DNA from: Bradyrhizobium sp. 1(2017)
GTDB taxonomy: Bacteria > Pseudomonadota > Alphaproteobacteria > Rhizobiales > Xanthobacteraceae
Length of the DNA: 64,000 bases
Direction: 5' to 3'
Assembly (NCBI RefSeq): GCF_011602485.2
Contig: NZ_CP050022.2
Coordinates: forward strand, 6,778,001 to 6,842,000
Position 1 is the first letter of the stretch; the number at the start of each line of letters is the position of its first letter. Under the pieces are notes generated by a model, which had not been told where the DNA came from, did no database searches, and saw only the letters and a list, made by a program, of their open reading frames with translations. Positions 1,045 to 17,403 of this stretch are shown piece by piece. The position numbers and the translations under genes are program-made.

Positions 1045-2058
1045 CTATTGGAAGCCAAACACCCGCTTCCAGTCGTCCTTCATGCTGACGACGACCCAGC
1101 CATTGGCGCTCGCCGCGTCGAGGCCCTTGTCGAGCTTGCCGAAGGGCGACTTGCGGTCGTAGGCGTATTCGCGCTCCGCATCCGTATGGTGCACGATCAG
1201 GCCCAAGCGGCGGCCGCGCGCGCCGGTGGTCCATTGCAGCATCTGGAAGTCGCCGTCTGAATTGCCGAAGGCGGCAATCGGTCGGCGGCCGATATGCGAA
1301 TTGATGCCGACAGGCTTGCCGGGGCCGTCATCGACGAGATCGATCGTCGGCAGGCGGATCAGAACCGGCCCATCCTTGTCGACCTTGAACTGCGTCTTGA
1401 TGCTCGAGCCCACGACCTGCTCGGGAGGAATGCCGTAGACACGTTCGCTCCACGGACGCATGAATTCGATGCCGCCGCCCGAGACAATGAAGGTCTTGAA
1501 GCCGTTGGTCCTGAGGTAGCCGAGCAACTCTAGCATCGGCTGGTAGACGAGCTCGGTATAAGGCCGGTCGAACTTCGGATGGCGCGCGGTCTTGATCCAG
1601 TCGGAGGCAATCTGCTCGAACTCTGCGGTCGTCATTCCGGCATGCGTCGCCATGACGAGCTCGACCAGGCCCTTCTCGCCCGCCTTTGCGAGCGCGGCGA
1701 TGTCCTTGTCAAGAACGGCCTTGAAGGGTTGCTTCTGCTTCCACTCCGGATGCCTGGGAGCCAGCGCCTTCACGCGGTCGAGCGCGAATGCGAGCTGCAC
1801 GTACATCGGCTGCTCGCACCAGAGCGTGCCGTCGTTGTCGAATGTCGCGACGCGCTCAGCCGCCGGCACGAAGTCCGGGCTCCCTTCCCGGGTCACCCCG
1901 GAGACGAAGTCGACGATCGATTTCTTGGCCGGGCCTTCGTTCCAGGACTGTAGCGGGTCGGACTGCGCGAGCGCAGAGCCACCGGAGACAGACAATGAGG
2001 CTGCCGACGCCAGAAGACCGGCCACGATCAAACGACGGTCGATCAGGAGTTCCGTCAT
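1045..2058 (-). CDS. Secreted HAD-superfamily hydrolase/phosphatase
   Basis: A 337-residue haloacid-dehalogenase-like phosphohydrolase. The N-terminus (residues 1-31, ending ALAQ) is a signal peptide, so the enzyme is probably periplasmic. HAD motif I is FDNDGTLW near residues 73-80, with both Asp residues of DxDGT. Motif II is VSGGG near 194, and motif IV is GNSDGDF near 266. The phosphoserine-phosphatase-like subgroup often has this arrangement, but the substrate is unknown. It lies between two sulfatase genes on the same strand. The hairpin at 2097-2125 separates it from the upstream sulfatase, so transcription may be attenuated here or restart. A role in releasing phosphate or sulfate from the same external polymers is only a guess from context. 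Confidence 0.88.
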   Translation of the reverse strand: MTELLIDRRLIVAGLLASAASLSVSGGSALAQSDPLQSWNEGPAKKSIVDFVSGVTREGSPDFVPAAERVATFDNDGTLWCEQPMYVQLAFALDRVKALAPRHPEWKQKQPFKAVLDKDIAALAKAGEKGLVELVMATHAGMTTAEFEQIASDWIKTARHPKFDRPYTELVYQPMLELLGYLRTNGFKTFIVSGGGIEFMRPWSERVYGIPPEQVVGSSIKTQFKVDKDGPVLIRLPTIDLVDDGPGKPVGINSHIGRRPIAAFGNSDGDFQMLQWTTGARGRRLGLIVHHTDAEREYAYDRKSPFGKLDKGLDAASANGWVVVSMKDDWKRVFGFQ

Positions 2059-2136: not shown

Positions 2137-3846
2137 CTAGTTGCCGGTAGGCAGTCCGATCGCGAAGCCTTCCTTCGCAAGCGCATCCCTGAAGAACTGG
2201 AAGCGCTGGTACTGGGTGAGCGTGATGGGCCCTGTATAGGTCTCACTCTGCAACTTGCGCGGAGGATATTTCACGTAAGTCTGCATGAGCTCCTTGATTG
2301 CGGCATTGATCGAAACCAGAGACCAGGTGTGCTCCGTATAGTTGTTCATGAAAACGTCGTAGCGCTCCTGTGGGTCCTGCCAGAGGTCAAAGACCTGAGG
2401 AACGGTCGCCACATAGGACTCCGGTCCCTTCCAGCCGAGATTGCTGTCAACCGCCAGGCCGCCGGTCTTTGCGCCATTGTCACCACGCAGATTGAATACG
2501 GCCTTGTAGTTGCCAACACGCGCGGCACCAGGCGTGAGCTCGGACTCGGTGAAATAGAACCAGCTCTTGCGCTCCGATTTCCCGTTACCGAACAGGATCG
2601 GGGACATATCGATGCTGTCGAAGATGATGGGCTTACCTTCGCGATCGTTCTCCGGCAGCTTCACGCCGGCGAGTTTCGCGAACGTCGCCATGTAATCGAG
2701 GCCGCCGACGATGTCGGAGTTCTTCGCGCCGGCCTTGATGCCCGGCCCCCATGCGAGGGACGGGACGCGGTTGCCGCCCTCGCGGACCGTGCCCTTGGTG
2801 CCGCGGAATGGCGTATAGCCGGCATCCGGATAGACGTCCTGCCAGGCGCCGTTGTCGGTGGTCCAGAACACATAAGTGTTTTTGTCGAGGCCGAGCGACC
2901 GCACCTTGTCCATGATGCGACCGATCCGCGTGTCGTTCTCAACGACCGAGTCGGCGTACTTGCTCTTCGACATCGACTTGCCCTGGAATTCGGGCGCCGG
3001 CATGTTGGGCTGGTGCACCTTCATGAAGTTGATGCTCATGAAGAATGGGCCCGAGGACCTGTTGCGATCGAGATATTCGAGCGAGGCCTTCTCGACATAG
3101 TCGTCGAAGAAGGGGATGCCGACGACGCCCTTATCCGGCGTGTTGACGTACTGGCCGTTGATCCTGAAATCCTCCTTCGCCTTCTCGCCTGCGTTTCCGG
3201 ACAATGCGCCTTTCGTCACCCTCGTGAACATCGCCCTGAGCTCGGGGTCCATGTCAGGAAACCAGGTCGGGTCGGCATAGGTGTAAGCATTGAGATGATA
3301 GAGCCCGCAATACTTCATCTCGTCATAGCCCTGGGCGTTCGGGATCGCGTAATCATCCTCGCCGAGATGCCATTTGCCGGTGAAAAAGGTCTTGTAGCCG
3401 GCAGTCTTCAGAACCGAGGCAAGTGTCCATTCTGCTGCAGGAAGACCGCCGCCCTGCCCCTGGAATGCCACGGTGGTCATGCCGCTGCGATTTGGAATGC
3501 GACCAGTCTGCACCGCGGCACGACCGGGCGTGCAGCTTGGCTGCGCATAGAAGGACATGAACTGCATGCCTTCAGCCGCGAGGCGATCGATGTTGGGCGT
3601 CGGCATGCCGCGATTTTCGCCACCACCGTACGGCCCGGAATCACCGTAACCGAAGTCGTCCGACAGGATCAGGATGATGTTCGGCCTTGCTCCCCCGGCA
3701 GAGGATGACGGCTGCGGGGTGGTCGCCTGCGCTTGCGCAGTCTGGACGGGTGCCATCGCCGAGAAAGCGGCAATGGTGGCCAGCGAGCTGGAGGCCGCGA
3801 GCAGCTTGCGGCGGCTGAAGTCTTCCGTCGTCTTCTTGTCAGTCAT
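2137..3846 (-). CDS. Arylsulfatase (formylglycine type), Tat-exported
   Basis: A 569-residue sulfatase. The start chosen is the ATG at 3846-3844, which overlaps the FGE stop in TGATG. A longer in-frame ORF reaches 3960 but lies inside the FGE gene. Residues 11-16 (SRRKLL) followed by a hydrophobic stretch and AQAQ near 37-40 form a good Tat signal. PNIILILSDD begins the catalytic domain, CTPGR at 105-109 is the classic C-x-P-x-R maturation motif, and GKWHLGE carries the conserved Lys/His. The TGATG coupling to FGE suggests that modifier and substrate are co-translated. FGE has no signal peptide, so modification should happen in the cytoplasm before export. It is the most divergent of the three sulfatases here. 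Confidence 0.95.
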   Translation of the reverse strand: MTDKKTTEDFSRRKLLAASSSLATIAAFSAMAPVQTAQAQATTPQPSSSAGGARPNIILILSDDFGYGDSGPYGGGENRGMPTPNIDRLAAEGMQFMSFYAQPSCTPGRAAVQTGRIPNRSGMTTVAFQGQGGGLPAAEWTLASVLKTAGYKTFFTGKWHLGEDDYAIPNAQGYDEMKYCGLYHLNAYTYADPTWFPDMDPELRAMFTRVTKGALSGNAGEKAKEDFRINGQYVNTPDKGVVGIPFFDDYVEKASLEYLDRNRSSGPFFMSINFMKVHQPNMPAPEFQGKSMSKSKYADSVVENDTRIGRIMDKVRSLGLDKNTYVFWTTDNGAWQDVYPDAGYTPFRGTKGTVREGGNRVPSLAWGPGIKAGAKNSDIVGGLDYMATFAKLAGVKLPENDREGKPIIFDSIDMSPILFGNGKSERKSWFYFTESELTPGAARVGNYKAVFNLRGDNGAKTGGLAVDSNLGWKGPESYVATVPQVFDLWQDPQERYDVFMNNYTEHTWSLVSINAAIKELMQTYVKYPPRKLQSETYTGPITLTQYQRFQFFRDALAKEGFAIGLPTGN

Positions 3847-4820
3847 CACTCTCTCCCTGGACGTGTCACGCAACGGAACCCGAGATGGCTGGTCGACGTG
3901 TCGATCGGCTCGGCATGACGCGCAGCCGGCCTGTAGCGCCGGCAATAGTTCGGCGCGCAAAGGTGCGAGCCGCCCTTGATCACCTTGCGCGGTATGCGGC
4001 TGAGCGGCAGTGACGGATCGTGGCTGTCATGCTCGGAGCCGCCCCGCGGATTCTGGGGAATGCAGCAGGCTTTCTTCGCATCGGCCTGGTGCTTCGGAGC
4101 CCACCAGTCGCTGGTCCACTCCCAAACGTTTCCGATCATGTCGAACACGCCATAGCCGTTCGGCGGATAGCTCATCACGGGAGAGGTCCGCGGGTAGCCG
4201 TCCTCACAGCGGTTCTCAAACGGGAAGTGACCTTGCCAGGTATTGGCCTGATGCACGCCGCCCGGGGCGAGCTCATCCCCCCAGGCATACTCGGCTCCCT
4301 CGAGGCCACCGCGCGCTGCAAATTCCCATTCCGCTTCCGTCGGCAAATCCTTGCCGGCCCATCGCGCATAGGCGAGCGCGTCGGCATGGGCGACATGCAC
4401 AACCGGATGGTCGTCGAGCGACTTAATATTGCTTTTCGGGCCGTAGGGACGGCGCCAATTCGCGCCCTTGAGCAGCGTCCACCATCGGCTGTAGTCGCGA
4501 AGATCCACAGGATGATCCGGAGGCGTGAAGACGAGCGAGCCCGCGTAGATCATGTGCGGCAAGGCATCCGGATAGTCCTTTGGATCCGGAGGGACCTCGG
4601 CGAACGTGACATGGCCGGTAGCTCGCACGAACTCCTTGAACTGGCGGTTCGTCACCGGCGTGCGATCGATCCAGAAGCCGTCGACGCTCACCATGTGAGA
4701 TGGCGCCTCCTCGGGATAATGCCGATCCGACCCCATCCGGAAGGTCCCCCCCGGAATGAAGATCGCGTTCGGGGGGCCGCCTTCGCCGACATCTGCGATC
4801 CGTGTCTGCGCAATGTTCAC
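3846..4820 (-). CDS. Formylglycine-generating enzyme (sulfatase-modifying factor)
   Basis: A 324-residue FGE-sulfatase family protein that oxidises the active-site Cys of sulfatases to formylglycine. It opens with FIPGGTFRMGSD (residues 21-32) and carries DLPTEAEWEFAARGG (158-172) and NVWEWTSDWW (231-240). Near the C-terminus is GGSHLCAPNYCRRYRPAARH, in which Cys288 and Cys293 match the paired cysteines of true FGE that bind copper(I) and handle oxygen. This separates it from the many redox-inactive family members. No signal peptide is seen, so it is cytoplasmic. It is the first gene of the minus-strand sulfatase cluster and overlaps the next start by one base. A palindrome lies about 100 bases upstream at 4921-4934. 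With three sulfatases nearby it is probably the modifier for all of them. Confidence 0.95.
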   Translation of the reverse strand: MNIAQTRIADVGEGGPPNAIFIPGGTFRMGSDRHYPEEAPSHMVSVDGFWIDRTPVTNRQFKEFVRATGHVTFAEVPPDPKDYPDALPHMIYAGSLVFTPPDHPVDLRDYSRWWTLLKGANWRRPYGPKSNIKSLDDHPVVHVAHADALAYARWAGKDLPTEAEWEFAARGGLEGAEYAWGDELAPGGVHQANTWQGHFPFENRCEDGYPRTSPVMSYPPNGYGVFDMIGNVWEWTSDWWAPKHQADAKKACCIPQNPRGGSEHDSHDPSLPLSRIPRKVIKGGSHLCAPNYCRRYRPAARHAEPIDTSTSHLGFRCVTRPGRE

Positions 4821-4920
4821 GTCGGATCCTCCGCGCTATCAAGGCGTCCGGCAGCAGTTCGCCTGATGACCGCCGGCTAGAGAGGCCAAAACTCTAAGGC
4901 GCGGCATTTATTGGCCTAGT

Positions 4921-4934
4921 TGGACCTTGGTCCA
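4921..4934. promoter_or_regulatory. Palindrome TGGACC-TT-GGTCCA upstream of FGE operon
   Basis: Perfect 6-bp arms with a 2-base spacer, about 100 bases upstream of the FGE start. A 22-base block (4915-4936) is repeated exactly at 6791-6812, and a close variant occurs at 10607-10622. It is probably an operator or activator site; the LuxR-type regulator at 9499 is the obvious candidate to bind it. Confidence 0.75.
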
Positions 4935-5009
4935 TCATGTTTCGTGCGAGCTAACACGATGCTCATCTTCACCGAATCCCGAGCCTTGGCGGGAACCCGC
5001 CCCCCGAAG

Positions 5010-5621
5010 TCAGGTCGGCGAGCTCCGCAGATCCTGTCCTCGAAGCGCGGCCGCCGAACCGATCCCGATGTTCTTCACGATCGTCCTCGCCTGCAGCATG
5101 GTGATGTCGAGCGGCCTCACATGCTCGCCCGGGTAGTACCTCACGTTGCCGACCAGTGGCGTCGGTGCCTGCGGCACGAAGACGACCATCCAGTTGTTCT
5201 CCAGCGCTTCCAGCAGGTATCCGATCTGCCAGCCTCCTTCGGCGCTGACCAGCACCGGCTTGAACTCATCGCTCGCGGTTTCGGCCTGGGCAAGGCCTTG
5301 GGCCATGCTCTTGACCATCTGGTATTGCGGCATGCCGCCGAGAAACGAATTTTCGAACCACGCGCTGGCGTTTGCCCCAACCCTCGTCCGCGCCACGACG
5401 CCGGCCAGGAAAGAAACCAGAACAAGAAGAATCGCCGCCAGAATCGTCACGATGCCGACGCCGGCGATCTTCCCGACCTCGTCGAAATGCAGCCAATGCG
5501 ACACGGGCAGCGCCGCCTGGACTGCGATCCGCATGGCGTGGCCGAGGATCACCAGGACGAGAGCCAGGGGCAGCAGGAACAACGCGCCCCCGATGACCGT
5601 GGTCTTCAAGAACTGCTTCAT
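5010..5621 (-). CDS. DUF502 family membrane protein
   Basis: A 203-residue protein matching the DUF502 pattern. It has two hydrophobic segments (about residues 8-32 and 50-75) and a soluble C-terminal part with the family-typical FVPQAPTPLVGNVRYY stretch and a following PLDIT motif. The biochemical function of the family is unknown. It lies 56 bases after the outer-membrane-type gene on the same strand and is probably its operon partner. The 3' end abuts the regulatory region of the FGE operon. Confidence 0.85.
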   Translation of the reverse strand: MKQFLKTTVIGGALFLLPLALVLVILGHAMRIAVQAALPVSHWLHFDEVGKIAGVGIVTILAAILLVLVSFLAGVVARTRVGANASAWFENSFLGGMPQYQMVKSMAQGLAQAETASDEFKPVLVSAEGGWQIGYLLEALENNWMVVFVPQAPTPLVGNVRYYPGEHVRPLDITMLQARTIVKNIGIGSAAALRGQDLRSSPT

Positions 5622-5677
5622 CGCGCCTCCCCATCATCCGGCGTTGCGCAAGTTAGGCCCGCAACATTCCGGGCGAG

Positions 5678-6583
5678 CTACCATGTGATGTTCAGCCGGA
5701 ACTGGCTCTTGAAATTGTAGACCGGATAATCCTTGATGATGGGGACGCCGACTTCCAGCGAGGCCGCGACGTTGTCGGACAGCTTCTTTCCCGCGCGTAC
5801 GTCCAGCGGCAGAAACAGGCGGCCGGTCTGTCCGGTGATTGGATCGCCGAGATTTATCCGGATGTCCTGGCTGGGATAAAAGGTGACGAACCAGCGATCG
5901 GGCAGACCGATGTTCAGGGTCGGACCAAACTGCAGGTTGCTGATATTCCGCCTCGTCGGGTCTCCGGCAACACTGACGTCATACCGGAAGATTGGCTCGA
6001 AGTAGCTCGACTTGCTGATTTCCGGCAGCGCAACACGAAAGCCGACGATCGGCATGACGCGCCACTTGCCCGATCCCAGCGGATCTTCACCGGTCGGGGT
6101 GATCAAACGGGCGCCGAAGCCCACTGCCCAGCGCTTGTCGAGATCATGAATGACGGCAGCCTGGATGTCGGCATCGCCAATGCCGTACAGGTAGTCCCCG
6201 TTCGGGTTGCTCGAATTGATCGTGTTCCTGGCCAGCAGCGGCAGATCCGTTCGTGTCACCACCGTCCACGTCGGGGTCAAATAGAACGCATGGTCATAGC
6301 GCAGATTCAGCGTCTGCGTGGTGACGTCCCGCGTGCTTCCCGGCGCCGTACGGTACTCGTACTGGAACTGAAACAGGTTCGGAGGCGGCCGGAAGAAATC
6401 CAGGCCGGACAGGTCGTATGTTTCGGCCGACTGCGCAGCGGCGGAGGTCGACCACAACAGACCGAGCGTGATGAGGAACGCGGCCCGACGCCTGCCTGTG
6501 GCTGCACTCCAGGCACACGAGCCGATGCGACCGGGGCAAGTTCTCGCATGGGCCTCCACGCCGGACGTCTTGTTGCGCATCAT
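5678..6583 (-). CDS. Outer-membrane beta-barrel-like protein (MetA-type transporter family)
   Basis: About 301 residues. The ATG at 6583 was chosen because GGAG sits five bases upstream; a TTG at 6607 in the same frame has a poorly placed site. A signal sequence is seen (RRRAAFLITLGLLWS, then SAAAQ). The mature part has alternating polar/aromatic strands (for example FQFQYEYR, TLNLRYDHAFY) and ends FRLNITW, an aromatic C-terminus typical of outer-membrane barrels. It resembles proteins labelled 'transporter' of the phenol MetA-degradation type, but that label is loose. The palindrome at 6797-6810 is upstream, linking it to the sulfatase regulon. Uptake of a sulfated or aromatic compound is possible but unproven. 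Confidence 0.75.
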   Translation of the reverse strand: MMRNKTSGVEAHARTCPGRIGSCAWSAATGRRRAAFLITLGLLWSTSAAAQSAETYDLSGLDFFRPPPNLFQFQYEYRTAPGSTRDVTTQTLNLRYDHAFYLTPTWTVVTRTDLPLLARNTINSSNPNGDYLYGIGDADIQAAVIHDLDKRWAVGFGARLITPTGEDPLGSGKWRVMPIVGFRVALPEISKSSYFEPIFRYDVSVAGDPTRRNISNLQFGPTLNIGLPDRWFVTFYPSQDIRINLGDPITGQTGRLFLPLDVRAGKKLSDNVAASLEVGVPIIKDYPVYNFKSQFRLNITW

Positions 6584-6796
6584 GCGCGCTCCGGAACTCA
6601 GCTTCAAACTCCTATCGCATGGCCTCGCTCATAGAACGTCAGGACGTCACGATATTGAACCAGAACTCGAAGGCATCAAGAGCGGAAACGACATCGCGCT
6701 ACTTTGCCTGATCGCCGTATCGGTCATACGCGGCTCGTGTGACGGCGGCCGGTTGGAGGGCTGAAAGCTAAAATGCAGCCGACACACAGACCTAGT

Positions 6797-6810
6797 TGGA
6801 CCTTGGTCCA
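6797..6810. promoter_or_regulatory. Palindrome TGGACC-TT-GGTCCA, second copy
   Basis: Identical to the 4921-4934 site, including flanking bases over 6791-6812. It lies in a 620-base gene-free region, about 215 bases upstream of the 6583 start (minus strand) and 395 bases upstream of the sensor kinase (plus strand), so it could serve either direction. Nothing else in 6584-7204 looks coding. Confidence 0.75.
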
Positions 6811-7023
6811 TCCGTATTGCATGCGCTCGTTGCGAAGACCCTAGGCCTGGCCGTTGACTGATACGCCCCTGCGGTCGCTCGCGACCATGTGCCGCGCCGC
6901 GCGGTTCCCGCAAGCCAGATTTGAAACGCCACAAAAACGAAGCGCCACAAAGTGCTGACCTAGCCTGGATGGCCAGGGAAAATTGGCCTTAGATTGCAGG
7001 CCATTTCGTCCCTCTCGCCCCAT

Positions 7024-7078
7024 GGCACAAACTGCATAGTGCTTCCGAATTATAGTGTTCCGAATGAAAGGCACAAAC
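7024..7078. repeat. Nested direct repeats upstream of sensor kinase
   Basis: GGCACAAAC occurs at 7024-7032 and 7070-7078. Between them AGTGCTTCCGAAT (7038-7050) is followed by AGTGTTCCGAAT (7054-7065), identical apart from one deleted base. The block lies about 125 bases before the kinase start and may hold binding sites. Confidence 0.5.
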
Positions 7079-7204
7079 CTGCTTGGCCGAGCTTGTTTGG
7101 TAAGAGCTGCGGATCCATCCCGTCAGCATTCCAGACCGCTCAACTCGACATAGATCGACCATAGGTTTTAGCGTACCTTTGTACCCCGAAGCGGGTCGAA
7201 ATTT

Positions 7205-9502
7205 GTGAAAATTGTCGGTCGAGCTATAGGACAAACAACAAGAACGAATTGCAGCGGCATCCTGCCCGGTGTCGTTCAGTTGATCGTTATTGTGTTTTTC
7301 TTGTCGGGTGGTCAATCGCGCGCAGATGACTCGCCGCGGCACATCCTCATCTTAAGCGCCTATAATTACACGATGCCCGCCGCGACCCAGGTCATAGACG
7401 GCATTCAGGATCGTCTTCGCGAGCAAAGCAAAAAGAAGCTGGAGATCGACGCCGAATTTCTCGATCTCGTCCGCGTCACCGACCCCCAGCACGAGCTGCG
7501 CACGGCGAATTTCGTGCGTGAAAAATATGCGGCGAGGCCGCCGGACCTCGTCGTCGCGGTAGGCGGCACCGCACTCCAGTACATCATGAAGTATCGCGAC
7601 ATCGTGGCTCCACACGTTCCCGTGGTGTTCGCGGGAGTCTCGCAAGCAACCTATTCTACACTGCGCCCGCCCACGAACGTCACCGGCGTACTGATCGGAC
7701 TCGATTTCGAGAAAACCCTTCGCCTCGCCGAACAGCTTCAGCCTTCCGCTCGGCGGCTCTTCGTCATCGCCAGCAATATCACTCTCGAAGACCGTCGATG
7801 GCAGGACATTGTTCGCCGCACCATCGAGCAACATGACCGAAAGTTTGAAACAACTTATCTCTTCGGGCTTCCGTTCGATACCGTCGCTGACGAGGTCTCG
7901 CGAATACCCAGGGACGCGATTGTCATCCTCTTGAGCTTCTTCGGCGACGGTACGGGAAAAGCCTTTGTCGCGAGGGACGTAGCCCGCAACCTCGCCCGCA
8001 TCTCCCCTGCCCCGGTCTACGGGCCTTACAGCACCTATCTCGACACCGGCGTCGTGGGCGGGTTTTTCGAGACATTCGAATCGCATGGCGCGGCGGCAGC
8101 CGATCTGATCCTGGCGATCGAGGCCGGGGCAGATCCCGTCTCGCTCCCGCCGAAAGTCAACCCAACCCAGGCCTTCCAAGTGGACGCGAGAGCGATGGCG
8201 CGGTGGGGCTTGAAGCAGAGCGATCTCCCGCCCGGCACGACCGTGTTGTTCAAGCAGCCGAGTCTTTGGGAGGAGCATCATTATCTAATTTCGGCGGTGG
8301 CCTTGGTCATTGCGTTGCAAACGATAATCGTCGCCGCGCTGCTGATTCAACGACGACGGCGCCGGCAGGCCGAAAGCTCGCTCAAGGAGAGCGAGGACCG
8401 CATGACCTTTACCGCCGCATCCGCCAATATCGGATTGTGGCAGTTCGACCGCACCACGGACGAGTTGTGGGCGACGGATCACTGCCGGACCATGTTCGGC
8501 CTTGCCAGCGACACCCCCCTCACGCGCGAGGCATTCGTCGCGGCGGTGCATCCCGAGGATCGGCGCATCGCAGTAGGCACATTGCGGGGCATATTGCGGG
8601 GGCGCGCCGCCGTGACAGACATCCGCATTGTCCGTCCCGACGGCGCGATCCGCTGGTTCAGAGTTCGCGCCCGCGCTCCCCTCGACAGCAACAGCTCGCC
8701 GGATCAACTCAGCGGAATCTTCGTCGATCTCACCGACCAGAAGGCAGCGGAGTCCGAAGCGGAGCTGCAACGCCAGGAAATCGCGCATCTGATGCGCGTC
8801 TCCACGCTCGGCGAGCTATCGGGCGCGATTGCCCACGAAGTCAATCAGCCGCTCACGGCCATACTTTCGAATGCGCAGGCCGCGCTCTATCTCCTCGAGC
8901 AAGACGAGCCCAATCTGGCCGAAGTGCGGGATGCCCTCCAGGACATCGTCAAGGAGGACAGTCGCGCTGGCAATGTTGTTCGACGTTTGCGCGGGCTGCT
9001 CAAGAAGGATCAGACACGCTCCGAGTTCATCGACCTCAATGAGATGGTCGATTCAGCCAAGTCGCTGCTCCGCAGTGAATTGATCAGCCGGCGCGTGACG
9101 ATAGAAACAGACCTGGCAAAGAGCAGACCGACCGTGTACGGCGACTCCGTACAACTGCAGCAGGTCCTTCTCAATCTCATCATCAACTCCATGGACGCGA
9201 TGGTTTCGACACCCGTGAACCAACGGCGCGTCCGCATCCACACCCGGGATGCTCCAAAGGGAAACGGCGCGATCGAGCTGTTGGTGAGTGACAACGGATG
9301 CGGCGTCCGACATGTTGACGGCAAGAAACTGTTTTCGCCGTTCTATACGACCAAGGACCACGGCCTCGGTCTTGGCCTGACCATCTGTTCCGGTATCATC
9401 CGAAGGCACGGCGGCACGATCGATCTCCAGGACAACGAGGCGGGCGGCGCGACAGCAAAGATCACTCTACCCGCTCCGCCAATGCTCATGGCTGCTCAAT
9501 GA
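7205..9502 (+). CDS. Sensor histidine kinase with periplasmic ABC-binding-protein-like sensor and PAS domain
   Basis: A 765-residue membrane histidine kinase with a GTG start. Order of parts: N-terminal membrane/signal segment (about 21-40); periplasmic domain like ABC_sub_bind (about 45-335; LVVAVGGTALQYI, VPVVFAGV); transmembrane helix (about 361-383) followed by RRRRR; PAS domain with PAC-like WFRVRARA (about 395-515); HisKA with GAIAHEVNQPL (His544); and an ATPase domain with LLNLIINSMDAM (N box), DNGCGV (G1) and GLGLGLTICSGI (G2). It is probably sensing a periplasmic small molecule. Its stop overlaps the regulator start by four bases (ATGA), so the two form a cognate pair. The location among sulfatase operons carrying a shared palindrome suggests that it controls them. 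Confidence 0.93.
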   Translation: MKIVGRAIGQTTRTNCSGILPGVVQLIVIVFFLSGGQSRADDSPRHILILSAYNYTMPAATQVIDGIQDRLREQSKKKLEIDAEFLDLVRVTDPQHELRTANFVREKYAARPPDLVVAVGGTALQYIMKYRDIVAPHVPVVFAGVSQATYSTLRPPTNVTGVLIGLDFEKTLRLAEQLQPSARRLFVIASNITLEDRRWQDIVRRTIEQHDRKFETTYLFGLPFDTVADEVSRIPRDAIVILLSFFGDGTGKAFVARDVARNLARISPAPVYGPYSTYLDTGVVGGFFETFESHGAAAADLILAIEAGADPVSLPPKVNPTQAFQVDARAMARWGLKQSDLPPGTTVLFKQPSLWEEHHYLISAVALVIALQTIIVAALLIQRRRRRQAESSLKESEDRMTFTAASANIGLWQFDRTTDELWATDHCRTMFGLASDTPLTREAFVAAVHPEDRRIAVGTLRGILRGRAAVTDIRIVRPDGAIRWFRVRARAPLDSNSSPDQLSGIFVDLTDQKAAESEAELQRQEIAHLMRVSTLGELSGAIAHEVNQPLTAILSNAQAALYLLEQDEPNLAEVRDALQDIVKEDSRAGNVVRRLRGLLKKDQTRSEFIDLNEMVDSAKSLLRSELISRRVTIETDLAKSRPTVYGDSVQLQQVLLNLIINSMDAMVSTPVNQRRVRIHTRDAPKGNGAIELLVSDNGCGVRHVDGKKLFSPFYTTKDHGLGLGLTICSGIIRRHGGTIDLQDNEAGGATAKITLPAPPMLMAAQ

Positions 9503-10125
9503 CGGACCGTGAATTCACAGTCTTTCTGGTCGATGACGACGAGAGCGTGCTGAAGGCAATCGCCCGGCTGCTGCTGGTGCGAGGGTATCGCGTTCAACCA
9601 TTCGCCTCACCAAGCGAATTTCTCGCAAATCACGACGCGTCGATTGCTGGATGCGCCATCCTGGACGTGGCGATGCCGGACCTTGACGGGCTCGCGCTGC
9701 AACAAGCGCTCGGCGCGAGCGGATCCTGCCGCCCGGTCATTTTCCTGACCGGGCGAGGCGACATTCCCACCACCGTCCGCGCCATGCGGGCCGGTGCCGT
9801 CGATTTTCTGACCAAGCCAGTTAGCGATACTGACCTATTGATGGCCATCGAACGGGCCGAGCGGAGGGATGGCGAAACTCGCGCTGCCGAGGCGGGCCGG
9901 ATCTCGTTCAACACCAGGCTCGCCATGCTCACGCCACGGGAGCGCGAGGTCATGCAGCACGTCGTCGCCGGCCGCCTCAACAAGCAGATTGCTGGCGTTC
10001 TGGGAACCGCCGAGAAAACTGTGAAGGTTCATCGCGGTCGGGTCATGGCGAAGCTTGGCGTTCGCTCCGTCGCAGACCTCGTACGCCTGGCAGAAAGATC
10101 CGGAATCGCGGGCAGCGAGACGTGA
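9499..10125 (+). CDS. Two-component response regulator, FixJ/LuxR type
   Basis: A 208-residue regulator. The receiver domain (1-120) has the acidic pocket VDDDE (11-15), phosphoacceptor Asp56 in ILDVAMP, Thr84 in FLTGRGD and Lys106 in TKP. The C-terminal LuxR helix-turn-helix begins LTPREREVMQHV near residue 144 and includes NKQIAGVLGTAEKTVKVHRGRVM. It overlaps the kinase gene by four bases. Regulators of this class bind dyad-symmetric sites, and the TGGACC-N2-GGTCCA palindromes at 4921, 6797 and 10607 are the only repeated dyads seen around it. It is therefore the best candidate to bind them. Confidence 0.93.
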   Translation: MTDREFTVFLVDDDESVLKAIARLLLVRGYRVQPFASPSEFLANHDASIAGCAILDVAMPDLDGLALQQALGASGSCRPVIFLTGRGDIPTTVRAMRAGAVDFLTKPVSDTDLLMAIERAERRDGETRAAEAGRISFNTRLAMLTPREREVMQHVVAGRLNKQIAGVLGTAEKTVKVHRGRVMAKLGVRSVADLVRLAERSGIAGSET

Positions 10126-10189
10126 CGGACACCGTGTGGGCCTTTGGGCCAACTCGACAACGCCCCGTTGCAGCGCCGATAGTGGGTGC

Positions 10190-10588
10190 ATGGCACAACC
10201 TCCCCGGTGGATAGCAATCGTCGATGACGATCCGTCGGTCCTCAGGGCGCTATCGCGATTGCTGAGGACACGGGGCATCGACTTGAGAACGTACGAGTCC
10301 GCCAGGGACTTCCTCAGCTCGCTGCCGGACGAGGCAACAGGCGCGTGGCCCGACTGTCTGATCCTGGACCTCCAAATGCCCGAAATGAACGGCCTCGACC
10401 TTCAACGACACCTGAAGCGGTCAGGGATCCAGATCCCAACCATTGTCATCACCGCGCATTCCGAAGACGACATGCGCGAGCTCTGCATGGCGGCAGGTGC
10501 TCACGCCTATCTCCTCAAGCCCCTCGATGATCTGACTCTGATCGCGGCGATCAACGACGTTCGAGCGAGAGGCGCGCGACCCGCATGA
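10190..10588 (+). CDS. Single-domain response regulator (receiver only)
   Basis: A 132-residue receiver domain without an output domain. The ATG at 10190 (MAQPPRW) was chosen because the receiver fold begins right after it; an in-frame extension to 10055 would overlap the preceding gene. Motifs are VDDDP (11-15), Asp60 in LILDLQMPEMNG, TAHS (88-91) and Lys110 in LLKP. It follows the LuxR-type regulator by 64 bases. Such proteins often act as phosphate sinks or phosphorelay intermediates, so it may tune signalling by the kinase at 7205. A terminator was not seen before the palindrome at 10607. Confidence 0.9.
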   Translation: MAQPPRWIAIVDDDPSVLRALSRLLRTRGIDLRTYESARDFLSSLPDEATGAWPDCLILDLQMPEMNGLDLQRHLKRSGIQIPTIVITAHSEDDMRELCMAAGAHAYLLKPLDDLTLIAAINDVRARGARPA

Positions 10589-10606
10589 TACGCGGTCTGG
10601 TGCCTA

Positions 10607-10622
10607 TTGGACCTAGGTCCAA
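10607..10622. promoter_or_regulatory. Palindrome TTGGACCTAGGTCCAA upstream of MoxR operon
   Basis: Perfect 16-bp palindrome, a variant of the sites at 4921 and 6797, also preceded by CCTA. It lies 18 bases past the receiver-gene stop and about 305 bases before moxR, in a 339-base stretch with no convincing gene. It is probably the control site for the MoxR/sulfatase operon. Confidence 0.75.
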
Positions 10623-10927
10623 TGTTGCTATCGCAAGTTCGTATGGGATGCTGTCCCACGATGAAGGTCTTCAACGCTTGGAAGAATCCCTTTACGGGCG
10701 CTGAGCCGTTGCGGATCCGAATTGCGATTGGGGCGCTTGGCGCTTCGCTCCGGTCCACCGAACCTTTTCGATGAATATGCGCCGGGCGTTTGGTCGGCAG
10801 ATCTCAGCATCGATCCGAATGCTGGTGCTGTGACATGCTGGACAAGGCGGCGACCACACAGGGGTAGCGATCACAAGGCCCCGCCGTCACGCGCGGCGGC
10901 CGGCAATCGTTTCATGTTGGGAGAGCT

Positions 10928-11935
10928 GTGCTGACGGAGCTGGAAAATTCAAAGAAGGTATCCGCAGCCCGTGACGCTATACTTGAACTGAAGTCGCGGA
11001 TCGGAAAATCTGTGCTCGGCCAGGATCACCTGGTCGAGAGCATGCTGATTGCGCTGATCGCCAACGGAAACCTCCTGATCGAAAGTCTTCCGGGTCTCGC
11101 CAAGACGCGGGCGGTCAAGACATTAGCTAAACATCTCGCGGCGGATCTGTCGCGTGTGCAGTTCACCCCGGATCTGCTGCCTTCGGATGTGACCGGCGCA
11201 GAGATCTACGTCCAGACCGCGAACGGAGGCCAGTTTCAGTTCCAGAAGGGACCGATCTTCGCGAACCTCGTACTTGCCGACGAGATCAACCGCGCGCCGG
11301 CCAAGGTGCAGTCCGCGCTGCTCGAGGCCATGGAAGAACGTCAGGTCACGGCCGCGGGCAAGACCTACAAGATGCCAGACCTGTTCATGGTGCTCGCCAC
11401 CGAGAACCCGATCGAGCAGGAGGGAACCTATCAGCTACCCGAGGCGCAGCTCGACCGCTTCCTGATGCATGTCGTCATCACCTATCCCGATGAAGCGATC
11501 GAGGGAGAGATCATCAAGCTCAATCGTGCCGAGAGCGCACAGAAAGCGAAGGATCATACTGCGGAGCCGGAAGCCATCCCGCAGCAGGCGATCTTCGATG
11601 CACGCGGGGAGATCGACGGCATCTTCGTGTCCGATCTCGCTCAGAAATACATGGTCGACGTGATCACTGCGACGCGCTTTCCGGACCGCTACGGCGAGCC
11701 ACTGGGCAAATGGATCCAAGTCGGCGCCAGTCCGCGCGGCAGCCTGGCGCTCGATCGCTGCGCGCGTGCGCGCGCCTGGCTGGACGAATACGAGTTTGTG
11801 ACGCCGGATCATATACGCGCGGTCATGCATGACTGCCTACGGCACCGGCTGATCCTGAGCTACGAAGCCGTATCCCAAGGCATCACCGCCGATCAGGTGA
11901 TCGACAAGATTGCGGCACTCGTCGTATCGGCGTGA
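10928..11935 (+). CDS. MoxR-family AAA+ ATPase
   Basis: A 335-residue AAA+ chaperone ATPase with a GTG start. The Walker A region is ESLPGLAKT (about 52-60, PGLAKT being usual for MoxR proteins), the Walker B is LVLADEINRAPAKVQ, and sensor-type ATENPIEQEGTYQLPEAQLDRF follows in pieces. MoxR ATPases work with VWA-domain partners to remodel proteins or insert cofactors. Here the partners are the DUF58 and VWA proteins encoded directly downstream. As the first gene of the operon that leads to a sulfatase, and preceded by the palindrome at 10607, it may assist sulfatase or FGE maturation. That role is inference from context only. Confidence 0.93.
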   Translation: MLTELENSKKVSAARDAILELKSRIGKSVLGQDHLVESMLIALIANGNLLIESLPGLAKTRAVKTLAKHLAADLSRVQFTPDLLPSDVTGAEIYVQTANGGQFQFQKGPIFANLVLADEINRAPAKVQSALLEAMEERQVTAAGKTYKMPDLFMVLATENPIEQEGTYQLPEAQLDRFLMHVVITYPDEAIEGEIIKLNRAESAQKAKDHTAEPEAIPQQAIFDARGEIDGIFVSDLAQKYMVDVITATRFPDRYGEPLGKWIQVGASPRGSLALDRCARARAWLDEYEFVTPDHIRAVMHDCLRHRLILSYEAVSQGITADQVIDKIAALVVSA

Positions 11936-11943
11936 GGTAGGCC

Positions 11944-12930
11944 ATGGCGGACGTCACCCACAGTGTGCCCGGCGTCTATGTCGATCTCGAAGATCTGATC
12001 GCACTCGAACATCGCGACCGCAGGGTGTCGTTCCTGCCGCGCCAGCCCGTGCACAGCCTGTTGTCCGGACGGTTCGCCTCACGGATGCGGGGCCGCGGGC
12101 TCAATTTTGAGGAAATCAGGGATTATCGTGCTGGTGACGACGTGCGCTCGATCGACTGGAAGGTCACCGCACGGCTGCGCAAGCCGCATGTCCGCGTCTT
12201 CAATGAGGAGCGTGACCGGCAGACGATCCTGATCGTCGACCAGCGCCTGTCGATGTTCTTTGGCAGCAGACTTGCAATGAAGTCGGTAGCGGGGGCACAG
12301 GCGGCCGCAATCGGCGCCTGGCGCGTCCTCAGCGTCGGCGACAGGGTCGGCGCCATCGTCTTCAACGACCGCGATCTCGTCGAGGTGGCGCCAAGGCGCA
12401 GCCGAGCGACCGTCCTTCAGATCCTCTGCGCGATCGTCGCACAGAACCAGGCACTCGGTGTCGGCCGCGATATCGTTTCGGCGCCGGACAGACTCAATGC
12501 CGCACTCGCGCGTGCAGAGCGCCGCGCGCTCCATGACGCCGTCGTGGTCATCGTCAGTGACTTCGATGGTGCCGACGATGCGACGCGCAAGCTGGTCGGC
12601 GCGATGAGCCAACACAACGACGTCGTCGCGGCGCTCGTGCATGATCCCCTGCAAAGCGACCTGCCGCCATCGGCCAGCATGACGGTGACGGATGGCGAGC
12701 TCCAGATCAGGCTCGAGGTTGGGCGCGACAGCGTGCGCAAGCGCATATTGCAGGCAACCGAGGAGCGGCTGAGGAGCGTCTTCGCATGGACCCCCGAACT
12801 CGGCATTCCCGTACTGCCGCTCAGCGCCGCGGAGGACATCGCAATGCAGCTGCGCCACCTCCTGGGCGGCCCGCCCCAGCACCATGGGCGCGGCGGCGGT
12901 CATAGCCGGACGGAGGCCTCGCTTGGCTGA
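11944..12930 (+). CDS. DUF58 domain protein (MoxR partner)
   Basis: A 328-residue protein starting eight bases after the moxR stop. The DUF58 signature is clear: GRGLNFEEIRDYRAGDD, then VRSIDWKVTARLRKP near residues 60-80. A degenerate VWA-like fold follows (ILIVDQRLSMFF, with the MIDAS Ser/Thr pattern not fully kept). Family members commonly sit between MoxR and Bat proteins and are thought to be ATPase adaptors. No signal peptide or membrane segment is visible, so it is probably cytoplasmic. Its end overlaps the DUF4381 gene. Confidence 0.9.
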   Translation: MADVTHSVPGVYVDLEDLIALEHRDRRVSFLPRQPVHSLLSGRFASRMRGRGLNFEEIRDYRAGDDVRSIDWKVTARLRKPHVRVFNEERDRQTILIVDQRLSMFFGSRLAMKSVAGAQAAAIGAWRVLSVGDRVGAIVFNDRDLVEVAPRRSRATVLQILCAIVAQNQALGVGRDIVSAPDRLNAALARAERRALHDAVVVIVSDFDGADDATRKLVGAMSQHNDVVAALVHDPLQSDLPPSASMTVTDGELQIRLEVGRDSVRKRILQATEERLRSVFAWTPELGIPVLPLSAAEDIAMQLRHLLGGPPQHHGRGGGHSRTEASLG

Positions 12931-13414
12931 AGCCCAACCCGCCAACGACGATCCGGTCGCCGGACTGATCGACATCCCGTTACCGCGCGAGGTCAGCCTG
13001 TGGCCGCAGACCTGGGAGGCGAGGATTGCGATCATCCTGGTCCTGGGATTCGCGATCGCCCTGGTGTGGCGTGTCGTGCATGTGCGGCGTGCCAACCGGT
13101 ATCGCCGCGCGGCACTTGCCGAACTCGAAGCGATCGGACGCACGAGCTCGCCGGCTCCGACGGAGCTCCTCGCCCGGTTGTCCCTGCTCGTCAGGCGAAC
13201 GGCGCTCGCGGCGTTTCCGCGGCAGCAGGTGGCGCCGCTGGTCGGTCCGGCCTGGCTCTCCTTCCTCGATCATTCCTATGGCGGGCGCGAATTTTCCGAG
13301 GGCGTGGGCCGGCTGCTCGTCACGGGGCCTTATCGGAATGGTGCGCCGGAGGACGCGGAACTGGCGACACTCGTCGCACTGGTCCGTCGATGGATCAAGG
13401 TGCACCATGCTTGA
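12923..13414 (+). CDS. DUF4381 domain membrane protein
   Basis: A 163-residue protein from the TTG at 12923, which has GGAGG seven bases upstream and overlaps the DUF58 stop by eight bases. A longer in-frame start exists at 12884. One transmembrane helix (IAIILVLGFAIALVW) follows the short N-terminal IDIPLPREVSLWP stretch that is typical of the family. The C-terminal part (LARLSLLVRRTALAAFPR, then GPAWLSFLD) matches DUF4381 proteins found in MoxR/Bat operons. The molecular role is unknown, probably a membrane anchor or assembly part of the VWA complex. It overlaps the next gene by eight bases. Confidence 0.85.
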   Translation: MAEAQPANDDPVAGLIDIPLPREVSLWPQTWEARIAIILVLGFAIALVWRVVHVRRANRYRRAALAELEAIGRTSSPAPTELLARLSLLVRRTALAAFPRQQVAPLVGPAWLSFLDHSYGGREFSEGVGRLLVTGPYRNGAPEDAELATLVALVRRWIKVHHA

Positions 13415-14405
13415 GTTCGCCTGGCCATGGCTGCTGTTGGCGCTGCCGCTACCGATCCTGGTGTGGTGGTGGCTGCCCCCCTACCGCGCGCGTCAGGCTT
13501 CGGTCCATGTGCCGTTCTTCGAGCGCCTTGCGGCGGCGACCGGCGAGACGCCGCAGCGTGGTGCGGTCGTCATGGAGCGCCGTGCGGTTCAGATGATCGT
13601 GGCGATCGCGATCTGGGTGCTACTGGTTATTGCCCTGGCACGGCCGCAATGGGTCGGCGATGCCGTGACTCACGAGGTGTCCGCCCGTGACCTGATTCTG
13701 GCCATCGACATCTCGGGATCGATGGACCAGCGCGATTTCAAGACGCCGGATGACGAGACCTTGACACGGCTTGACGGCGTCAAGCGCGTCATCAGCGACT
13801 TCATCGCGCGCCGCAAGGGCGACCGTGTCGCGCTCATTCTGTTCGGCACGAGGGCCTATGTGCAGGTGCCGTTCACGCAGGATTTGCAGACCGCTCGACA
13901 ACTGCTCGGCCAGATCGAAGTGGGCATGGCCGGCGAGCAGACGGCTATCGGCGACACGATCGGCCTCGCCATCAAGAGCTTTGCAGCGAGCACGGCGAAA
14001 GAGAAGCTCCTGATCTTGCTCACCGACGGCAACGATACGGCAAGCCGCGTTCCGCCGGAACACGCCGCCGACATTGCACGCCAGAACGGCGTCGTCGTCT
14101 ATACGATCGGTGTCGGCGATCCCGCGGCTTCGGGCGAGAACCGTGTCGACCTCGGTGTCTTGAAGGCCGTGGCGAGCACGACGGAAGGACGCTTCTTCCG
14201 CGCCGAGGACGGCGCTCAGTTGCAGGCGATCTACGTCGACATCGACCGGCTCTCGCCGGCGAAGCTACAGACGTTGTCATGGCGGCCGAAGCTGCCCCTG
14301 TTCCAGTGGCCGCTGGGCGCGGCCGTGATCCTCGGGCTGGTGTTGTGGCTTGCGCTCCTGATCGCCAGCGAATGGCGTCGGGGAAAGGCGGTCGGTCATG
14401 CATGA
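13407..14405 (+). CDS. VWA domain membrane protein, BatA-like
   Basis: A 332-residue protein. The start at 13407 (MLEFAWPW) was chosen because the region before it encodes DUF4381 in another frame. It has two N-terminal membrane helices (about 5-24 and 62-79), a VWA domain with an intact MIDAS motif D101-I-S-G-S105, LLTDGND in the usual position, and a C-terminal helix (GAAVILGLVLWLALLIA). This is the BatA layout, with the VWA domain held between membrane segments. An intact MIDAS implies metal-dependent ligand binding, possibly to the sulfatase or to an MoxR complex. It is embedded in overlapping genes. Confidence 0.9.
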   Translation: MLEFAWPWLLLALPLPILVWWWLPPYRARQASVHVPFFERLAAATGETPQRGAVVMERRAVQMIVAIAIWVLLVIALARPQWVGDAVTHEVSARDLILAIDISGSMDQRDFKTPDDETLTRLDGVKRVISDFIARRKGDRVALILFGTRAYVQVPFTQDLQTARQLLGQIEVGMAGEQTAIGDTIGLAIKSFAASTAKEKLLILLTDGNDTASRVPPEHAADIARQNGVVVYTIGVGDPAASGENRVDLGVLKAVASTTEGRFFRAEDGAQLQAIYVDIDRLSPAKLQTLSWRPKLPLFQWPLGAAVILGLVLWLALLIASEWRRGKAVGHA

Positions 14406-15918
14406 CGCCGTCGCCCTTCCCTTCCATCTCCTGCGGCCATGGTGGCTGCTCGGATTGATCCCGGTCGTGGCGATATTCGCCGTGCTGCTCTGGCGGCAGA
14501 ATGTGCGGGCGCAATGGGGCGCCGTGATCGCACCGCACCTGCTCGATCACCTGATCGTGCAGCCCGGGCGCGGACGCAGCGTCAACCCACTCTACCTCGT
14601 CGCGGCCGGCATGGTGCTCGGCATCGTCGGCATGTCGGGGCCTGCATGGCGACGCGAATTGCCGCCCTTCGTCGAGGACAAGGCGCCGCTGATGGTCGTG
14701 CTGGCTGTCGGATCGTCGATGAACGGGACCGATGTCGCTCCATCGCGGCTCGAGCGCGCCAAGCAGAAGATTGGCGATCTCCTCGGCGCACGCGCAGGCG
14801 CGCGGACTGGACTGATCGCCTATGCCGGCACCGCCCATCTCGTCATGCCGCTCACCGACGACCGCGCCGTGATCGAGCCCTTCCTGGCGGCGCTTGCGCC
14901 CGGATTGATGCCGACGGACGGCAAGAACGTCGCCGATGCAATCGCGCTCGCTGCAGCATCGCTCGCGACCGAGGCCGTCGCAGGCACGATTCTGCTGGTC
15001 GCTGACGACCTCGGCTCCACCGATCCTGGGGCGCTCGGGCCGGTCGCGGGGCGGAACAATCTGGTGATGCTCGCCGTGAGCGCGCAGAAATCCGCCACAT
15101 CGCTCGGCGCGGGCACCGTGGAGGTCAGCATCGACGGATCGGACATCGTGCGGCTGGAGCGGCGGATCGAGAGCCGCTTCCAGGCGGCGGAAGGCGATGC
15201 GTTCGGGACGCAATGGCGGGACGAAGGTTTCTGGCTGCTGCCGCCGATGGCGCTGCTCAGCCTGCTCTGGTTCCGGCGCGGCACGACGGTGGCTTGGGCC
15301 ATCGCTCTTGCTCTTGTGATGCAGGCGGGACAGGCAAGGGCCGAGGACGCATCCCGCTTTACGAGCCTGTGGTTGACGCCGGACCAGCAAGGGCGGCTTG
15401 CCTTCGATCGCGGCGACTACAAAAGCGCTGCCAGGCTGTTCGCCGACCCGATGTGGCGCGGGATCGCGGCCTATCGCGCCTACGACTTCATCGCCGCCGC
15501 CGAAGAGTTTTCGCGCGTCGAGACGATCGAGGGCAAGTTCGCGCTCGGCAATGCCCAGGCTCAGAACCACGCCTTTGAGAAGGCGATCAGCATCTATGAC
15601 GAGATTCTGAAGGTTGAGCCCGGCAACGGCGCGGCCAAGACCAACCGCGCGATCGTGCAGGCCGCGCTCGACGCGCGCGAGGCGAAGCGCCGCAAGCAGG
15701 AGCAGAGCGACGCCCCTCCCCCCGATCTGAAGCCCGACGAAATGCGGGTCGATCCCAAGCAGAAGGGCGGCAAGACCATCAAGGTCTCGCCGCAGGACAT
15801 CACCACCGCGGGGGCTGCGGAAGCGTGGATGCGGCAAGTACAGACCACGCCTGCAGACTTCCTCAAGCTGAAATTCGCGATCCAGGCCGCCGCGACGCCG
15901 GCAGGAACGAAACGATGA
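14398..15918 (+). CDS. VWA-TPR protein, BatB/BatC-like fusion with degenerate MIDAS
   Basis: A 506-residue protein with two N-terminal helices (about 14-31 and 64-80), a VWA-like domain and, after a helix near 300, a TPR region (about 335-420; LAFDRGDYKSAARLF, FEKAISIYDEILKVEPG). The tail is charged. The VWA domain keeps the BatB-like SRLERAKQKI stretch, but the MIDAS reads A103-V-G-S-S107 where D-x-S-x-S is expected. The metal-binding Asp and first Ser are therefore lost, and it probably does not bind metal in the usual way. The TPR part likely mediates protein contacts. It overlaps both neighbours. Confidence 0.87.
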   Translation: MHDAVALPFHLLRPWWLLGLIPVVAIFAVLLWRQNVRAQWGAVIAPHLLDHLIVQPGRGRSVNPLYLVAAGMVLGIVGMSGPAWRRELPPFVEDKAPLMVVLAVGSSMNGTDVAPSRLERAKQKIGDLLGARAGARTGLIAYAGTAHLVMPLTDDRAVIEPFLAALAPGLMPTDGKNVADAIALAAASLATEAVAGTILLVADDLGSTDPGALGPVAGRNNLVMLAVSAQKSATSLGAGTVEVSIDGSDIVRLERRIESRFQAAEGDAFGTQWRDEGFWLLPPMALLSLLWFRRGTTVAWAIALALVMQAGQARAEDASRFTSLWLTPDQQGRLAFDRGDYKSAARLFADPMWRGIAAYRAYDFIAAAEEFSRVETIEGKFALGNAQAQNHAFEKAISIYDEILKVEPGNGAAKTNRAIVQAALDAREAKRRKQEQSDAPPPDLKPDEMRVDPKQKGGKTIKVSPQDITTAGAAEAWMRQVQTTPADFLKLKFAIQAAATPAGTKR

Positions 15919-17315: not shown

Positions 17316-17403
17316 AGGGAGCAACCCGAAACTGAAACGGCCGAACTGACGACTCTCGAAGTTCAATCGAACGACCAAACCCGACAGTTCCAAGGAGCGT
17401 CTA

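Follow-up and report, generated by a model that had tools for sequence, protein, structure and literature searches.

A stretch of 64,000 nucleotides from Bradyrhizobium sp. 1(2017) (contig NZ_CP050022.2, positions 6,778,001 to 6,842,000; hereafter the window) contains three copies of one palindrome, which stand in front of the genes for a formylglycine-generating enzyme (FGE), an outer-membrane protein (OMP) and a MoxR-type ATPase. We propose, with a probability of about 0.8, that these palindromes are the operators of a single local FixJ/StyR-like two-component regulon for organosulfate hydrolysis, the protein that would bind them being RR1, a response regulator encoded next to a sensor kinase. 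A preliminary description of this DNA had placed the palindromes at 4921, 6797 and 10607, before an FGE/sulfatase cluster, an outer-membrane/DUF502 pair and a MoxR/sulfatase operon, with the kinase and a LuxR-type regulator in the middle, and had suggested an undescribed regulon controlled by that pair. Positions and neighbours alike are borne out, the three being the only exact 14-mers of the genome and all intergenic, and the proposed regulon is now supported by comparative evidence: the sites are conserved, and the 16-mer form of the palindrome tracks RR1.

The palindrome TGGACCTTGGTCCA can be read at 4921-4934 and again at 6797-6810, where the two copies share a surrounding stretch of 22 bases, CCTAGTTGGACCTTGGTCCATC; the third copy, TTGGACCTAGGTCCAA, occupies 10607-10622. 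The common 14-mer, TGGACCNNGGTCCA (TGGACC-NN-GGTCCA), has exactly three exact matches in the 7,858,280-base contig, at window positions 4921, 6797 and 10608, all of them outside called genes, and the reversed pattern has one. Base composition predicts about 0.9 matches for the genome and 0.0006 for a 5.7-kb stretch, and three randomly placed positions would lie that close together with a probability of approximately 1.6e-6. Allowing one mismatch adds 13 sites across the genome (11 inside called genes and two without a gene call from a simple gene caller), and a -10-like hexamer at promoter-type spacing accompanies none of the 13. When up to two mismatches are allowed, the genome as a whole has no excess (299 matches vs 365 for a control pattern) and the window alone has six matches, a mildly unusual number (attained in 5 of 100 shuffles). 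Since degenerate matches are not in excess, the signal resides in the exact sites. The full element is a 16-bp palindrome, TTGGACCNNGGTCCAA (TTGGACC-NN-GGTCCAA), with a 6-4-6 layout.

With respect to conservation within the genus, our sample comprised 146 genomes, that of the window and 145 others, and 52 of these have the 14-mer somewhere. A kinase orthologue is present in 11, the ten besides the window's own being 54-82% identical (the kinase of G123 and G001 aligns in two pieces). In every one of the ten an exact 14-mer lies 0.16-3.0 kb away from the kinase, compared with 41 of the 135 kinase-less genomes that have one anywhere. The site lies directly before FGE in nine of the ten (the FGE gene is truncated in G123 and in two pieces in G028); in G001 the site at the kinase locus precedes a sulfatase gene, and the FGE gene on another contig is preceded by a one-mismatch site. 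The locus L063 of B. liaoningense SZCCT0399 keeps the exact site at all three promoters, those of FGE, OMP and MoxR, so that the motif is conserved at orthologous promoters, the check that the preliminary description had proposed. In L063 the MoxR site is 3.4 kb beyond the gene for the receiver-only protein, with an autotransporter gene between them (the distance in the window is 20 bp), and among the loci read a MoxR-promoter site is confined to this genome and the window's own. The receiver-only protein is part of the conserved gene set, and the kinase-RR1 pair, whose genes in the window (7205-9502 and 9499-10125) overlap by four bases, is kept in the orthologous loci. We inspected a subset of 29 loci among the 14-mer matches of the genus sample: seven have the 16-mer, five of them beside FGE/sulfatase genes, and 22 have the 14-mer only, 17 in coding sequence and one (G001) beside a sulfatase gene. 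G123 has in addition a site before a sulfatase gene far from the regulator (L090). The same genome possesses a second, partial regulator region (L089; G123:C1:3229000-3248999), consisting of a kinase end, RR1 at 87%, the receiver-only protein and a piece of MoxR.

To obtain a broader view, co-occurrence was computed over a family set of 391 genomes for RR1 as the one regulator, its orthologues being those of at least 219 bits (the next match has 191). The 16-mer is matched in 18 genomes, at 28 sites by table count, vs 4 for the reversed pattern, and 15 genomes have an RR1 orthologue. The 16-mer is present in 11 of these 15, vs 7 of the 376 without RR1 (p 5.7e-14). Two more RR1-bearing genomes, G464 and G474, lack an exact 16-mer, but their locus has sites that match it at 15 of 16 positions. 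Genome G324 is instructive: its kinase has a MASE1 sensor, yet RR1 is present together with six exact sites on four contigs (five among the matches listed), two of which precede an FGE-sulfatase-HAD-MoxR operon. The sensor domain was therefore rejected as the partner of the palindrome. FGE as such was also rejected as the reason for the site: three further FGE genes of the Bradyrhizobium sp. 1(2017) genome (G000:C1:769701, 4366880 and 6001858; L227, L228 and L229), which are accompanied by HAD genes and in two cases by SULF2-like sulfatase genes, have no palindrome in their clusters, and these clusters may have other regulators. Similar non-coding palindromes, CTTTGGACCAAGGTCCAAAG and CTTTGGACCTAGGTCCAG, occur at L150/L217 (G070) and L148/L219 (G105), with no sulfatase gene and, for the first, before an HlyD-type gene; they probably belong to another regulator.

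The anatomy of the promoters was compared over 41 sites with a judged target, 20 of FGE class and 21 others (that of L134 is a one-mismatch site). Pairwise identity among the FGE-class sites is 97% in the half-sites and 26-38% in the flanks. A hexamer of the form TANNNT (TAGCGT, TAGAGT, TAGATT and similar) starts 31-33 bp from the centre at 18 of these 20 sites, and at +30 to +35 it is found at 12 of the 21 others and at none of seven coding decoys, the background being about 0.8 per equal window. On the mirrored side it occurs at 0 of 20 FGE-class and 3 of 21 other sites. Considered by flank-distinct groups, 15 of 17 have the hexamer, and the two FGE-class exceptions are G114 and G024, the same two that have no regulator nearby. 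The conserved arrangement is a palindrome followed at 31-34 bp by a -10-like hexamer, with the transcription starts placed from sequence; if the hexamer is taken as a -10 element, the centre of the palindrome would fall near -43 and the site would overlap the -35 region, a position that fits an activator. No -35-like hexamer was reported at the three window promoters, and of the two promoter-like sites detected in a scan of 4700-11000 (1.6 expected) neither is at a palindrome.

RR1 combines a receiver with a LuxR/GerE DNA-binding domain (PF00072 and PF00196), and its nearest solved chain is 1yio (E 1e-47), which we take to be StyR, followed by FixJ. The best NCBIfam matches of the kinase and of RR1 are FixL and FixJ, but the scores fall well short of the curated thresholds (213 of 850 and 184.8 of 255 bits), which leaves RR1 outside the FixJ equivalog class (at least 255 bits), and the targets here are sulfatase genes. 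Within the recognition helix, residues K173 and R181 are present in 20 of 20 RR1 orthologues vs 0 and 1, respectively, of 15 paralogues. This count left out four of the 24 orthologue rows; G267, G385 and G440 have both residues and G444 (43% identity) has neither. StyR is described in PMC2442086 as activating from a site at about -40 and as able to repress once a second site is filled; for StyR-like regulators the TdiR paper (PMC5874301) gives the consensus ATAAACN4GTTTAT and the StyR contacts K175, V176 and H179. The present system resembles StyS/StyR and TodS/TodT of Pseudomonas in its pairing of a kinase with a FixJ/NarL-type regulator and in the 6-4-6 palindrome with an inner AC-N4-GT, and its putative activating position would likewise be near -40. 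It differs from them in the half-site (TTGGAC instead of ATAAAC, so that the StyR/TodT consensus is not found in the operator), in the replacement of H179 by G or S, K and V being kept, in the residues K173 and R181 that mark the RR1 clade, and in having an ABC_sub_bind sensor, sulfatase targets and an additional receiver-only protein. Because the layout is that of StyR's palindrome but the letters are not, the RR1 system would work like the StyR group without being a member of it.

The mechanism that we envisage would begin in the periplasm, where the ABC_sub_bind domain of the kinase would sense a ligand, most probably an organic sulfate or a compound occurring with one. The kinase would then phosphorylate RR1, and a dimer of phosphorylated RR1 would bind the 16-mer over the -35 region and recruit RNA polymerase to promoters that have the -10 element, activating them in preference to repressing them. 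Switched on in this way would be FGE and the sulfatases, the OMP for substrate entry and the MoxR-VWA module with its second sulfatase. RR2, the receiver-only protein, may act as a phosphate sink or competitor.

A number of observations weigh against this proposal. There is no TANNNT at the standard spacing at the site before MoxR (site C), and the hexamer is absent from eight more of the 21 non-FGE sites; among 20 further exact sites outside the hexamer table it occurs, on either side, at none of the ten coding and at five of the ten non-coding ones. G466 and G267 have RR1 and just one-mismatch sites far from it. Conversely, seven family genomes (G114, G183, G302, G381, G386, G433 and G396) have the 16-mer and no RR1: in G302 and G381 the site is beside an FGE or sulfatase gene and in G386 and G433 it has other neighbours, these four assemblies being incomplete, while G396 has it with a different kinase gene and G183 inside a gene of an apparent ribosomal operon. 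In G114 and G024 an exact site precedes FGE with no RR1 or kinase within ~10 kb; the genome of G114 has no RR1 orthologue (best match 180 bits), and G024 was not covered by the genome-wide RR1 search. Some sites precede genes with no visible link, such as those for a cation ATPase and a glutamate-cysteine ligase, and the G324 assembly has 9% contamination. Finally, G518 and G557, from another family (L223 and L222), have a kinase and RR1 (RR1 at 55%) beside a sulfatase gene, with the 16-mer absent even when one mismatch is allowed, and their kinase-sulfatase gaps contain no symmetric palindrome resembling it. The best conserved intergenic block of these two sequences, TTACGTnTGGGAAGTTRGACCTTGGGGAAACACA, has one TTGGACC-like half-site, which is no more than suggestive.

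How far do such observations favor other explanations? The palindromes could be the operators of another transcription factor encoded elsewhere, the kinase, RR1 and RR2 merely travelling with the sulfatase cluster; this would suit G114 and G024, which keep the FGE site without RR1 nearby, and G466 and G267, which carry RR1 without an exact site. We consider it quite unlikely, since RR1, the one regulator compared in this way, predicts the 16-mer across the 391 genomes (11/15 vs 7/376), the sites follow RR1 despite the replaced sensor of G324 and also where the locus is distant from the regulator genes (L090, L204 and L205), the recognition-helix residues common to RR1 orthologues are missing in the paralogues (apart from R181 in one), and the palindrome does not accompany the other three FGE clusters of the window's genome. 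That RR1 binds the palindromes but represses, or does both, is an unlikely variant as well. A repressor, too, could work from a site placed over the -35 region, as this one would be, and StyR itself can repress when a second site is filled (PMC2442086); on the other hand, the fixed distance to the -10-like hexamer is what an activator requires, and the scan of 4700-11000 reported no -35-like hexamer at the three promoters.

Two further explanations were tried and rejected. One scan calls the site before FGE (site A) terminator-like, but such matches are at background (six found vs 5.5 expected, site A among them) and Rfam has no match in window positions 1-22000; moreover, sites upstream of the inferred -10 element lie outside the transcript of their target genes. 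RNA hairpins or terminators are consequently very improbable. Chance, or neutral inheritance within one genus, draws some plausibility from the frequency of the 14-mer, present in 41 of 135 kinase-less genomes and mostly coding where read. It is hardly credible in view of the confinement of all three exact sites of the genome to 5.7 kb (p ~1.6e-6), the contrast between half-sites (97%) and flanks (26-38%), and the spread of the sites over 17 flank-distinct groups. The two-component regulon remains the reading that we prefer.

The genes behind the sites in relatives include alkyl sulfatases, Phenol_MetA_deg-type OMPs, DUF1254/DUF1214 proteins and an ABC_sub_bind protein. There is a likeness to SdsA1-type alkyl sulfatases: an Alkyl_sulf gene is first behind the site in G123 (L077:13473-15449), where it sits between the site and the OMP-DUF502 pair, and an Alkyl_sulf fragment follows the site in G449 (L205). 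The OMP promoter of the window may formerly have served an alkyl sulfatase gene. In G324 and G474, DUF1254/DUF1214 genes are located at, or close to, a site or the regulator (L212, L213 and L134). From this gene content the regulon is read as one for the uptake and hydrolysis of organic sulfates.

The features of the window are collected in Table 1. Both FGE cysteines align with those of 6muj, which we take to be the active-site cysteines. SULF1 and SULF2 each have a Sulfatase domain and the C-x-P/A-x-R motif of type I sulfatases; the motif reads CTPGR in SULF1, and in SULF2 and the majority of its relatives it is CTAGR, with alanine replacing the proline of the usual sulfatase signature.

Table 1. 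Genes, palindromes and -10-like hexamers at the left end of the window (window coordinates).
Feature	Position	Strand	Basis or remark
Third sulfatase gene, truncated at the window's left end	1-989	-	PF00884
HAD-type hydrolase with export signal	1045..2058	-	domain match; signal judged by eye
SULF1, sulfatase with CTPGR site	2137..3846	-	domain match and active-site residues
FGE, formylglycine-generating enzyme	3846..4820	-	PF03781, 277 bits; both active-site cysteines
TAGAGT, -10-like hexamer of site A	4891..4896	-	starts 32 bp from site A centre
Site A, before FGE	4920..4935	-	15/16 positions of TTGGACCNNGGTCCAA; centre 107.5 bp from FGE start codon
DUF502-like membrane protein	5010..5621	-	DUF502 23.4 bits, just below 23.8 cut-off
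Phenol_MetA_deg-type OMP	5678..6583	-	domain match
TAGCTT, -10-like hexamer of site B	6765..6770	-	starts 34 bp from site B centre
Site B, before OMP gene	6796..6811	-	15/16 positions of the 16-mer
Sensor kinase: ABC_sub_bind, PAS, HisKA, HATPase_c	7205..9502	+	domain matches; alternative start 7280
RR1, FixJ/StyR-type response regulator, proposed palindrome binder	9499..10125	+	PF00072 and PF00196
RR2, receiver-only protein	10190..10588	+	domain match
Site C, before MoxR gene	10607..10622	+	perfect 16-bp palindrome; centre 313.5 bp before MoxR start
MoxR-type AAA+ ATPase	10928..11935	+	domain match
DUF58 protein	11944..12930	+	domain match
DUF4381 protein	12923..13414	+	domain match
VWA-domain protein, BatA-like	13407..14405	+	domain match
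VWA/TPR protein, BatB-like	14398..15918	+	domain match
BatD-like protein	15915..17315	+	domain match
SULF2, sulfatase with CTAGR site	17404..19074	+	domain match and active-site residues

The third of the putative operators precedes a gene module that can also be followed independently of the palindrome. At E 1e-110 or better this MoxR is found in 5 of 149 family genomes, the window's own and four of other genera, and in all five the run MoxR-DUF58-(DUF4381)-VWA-VWA-BatD stands with SULF2 relatives, mostly with FGE or HAD genes: both in G244 and G206, FGE alone in G225 and an FGE fragment alone in G164. Loci with the module beside SULF2-type genes are window 10928-19074, L243, L244, L245, L246 and L218. 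In G324, FGE, three SULF2-like genes, HAD and MoxR form one run. In the stretch read, the four loci identified through MoxR alone show two-mismatch matches to the palindrome but none closer; as the module occurs in other genera without the palindrome, it would be a system of its own. Like the MoxR-VWA maturation systems (MoxR with MoxC/L, NorQ/NorD, RavA/ViaA; PMC12657314), it has MoxR beside VWA genes and the gene of a candidate client enzyme; unlike them, it has as its recurring partner a type I sulfatase, in most cases accompanied by FGE and HAD. The analogy suggests a sulfatase-linked MoxR-VWA system. It is weak as regards mechanism, because the roles of MxaR and MxaS are themselves not fully clear according to PMC9728263. 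We would nevertheless advance, as a tentative idea with somewhat less than an even chance of being right, that the regulon took in a dedicated formylglycine-sulfatase maturation line, in which FGE would oxidise the active-site cysteine and a MoxR-DUF58-DUF4381-VWA-VWA-BatD complex would load metal, probably calcium, into the CTAGR sulfatases or remodel them, as MoxR-type complexes are held to do for methanol dehydrogenase. Our literature search on MoxR with sulfatases found no such system described; a passage of PMC7159879 concerns unrelated FGE-like domains.

The literature examined likewise yielded no described two-component system controlling formylglycine sulfatases in soil alphaproteobacteria, and in a search by motif letter strings none of the matches listed deals, by title, with bacterial regulation of this kind. 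Sulfate esters make up a large share of soil organic sulfur. With its operator, regulator clade and target set defined, the proposed regulon is directly testable, and the palindrome together with a -10 element at +31 to +34 offers a search pattern for its members in other genomes. The MoxR-VWA module, for its part, points to a specific enzyme as the possible client of one MoxR subfamily.

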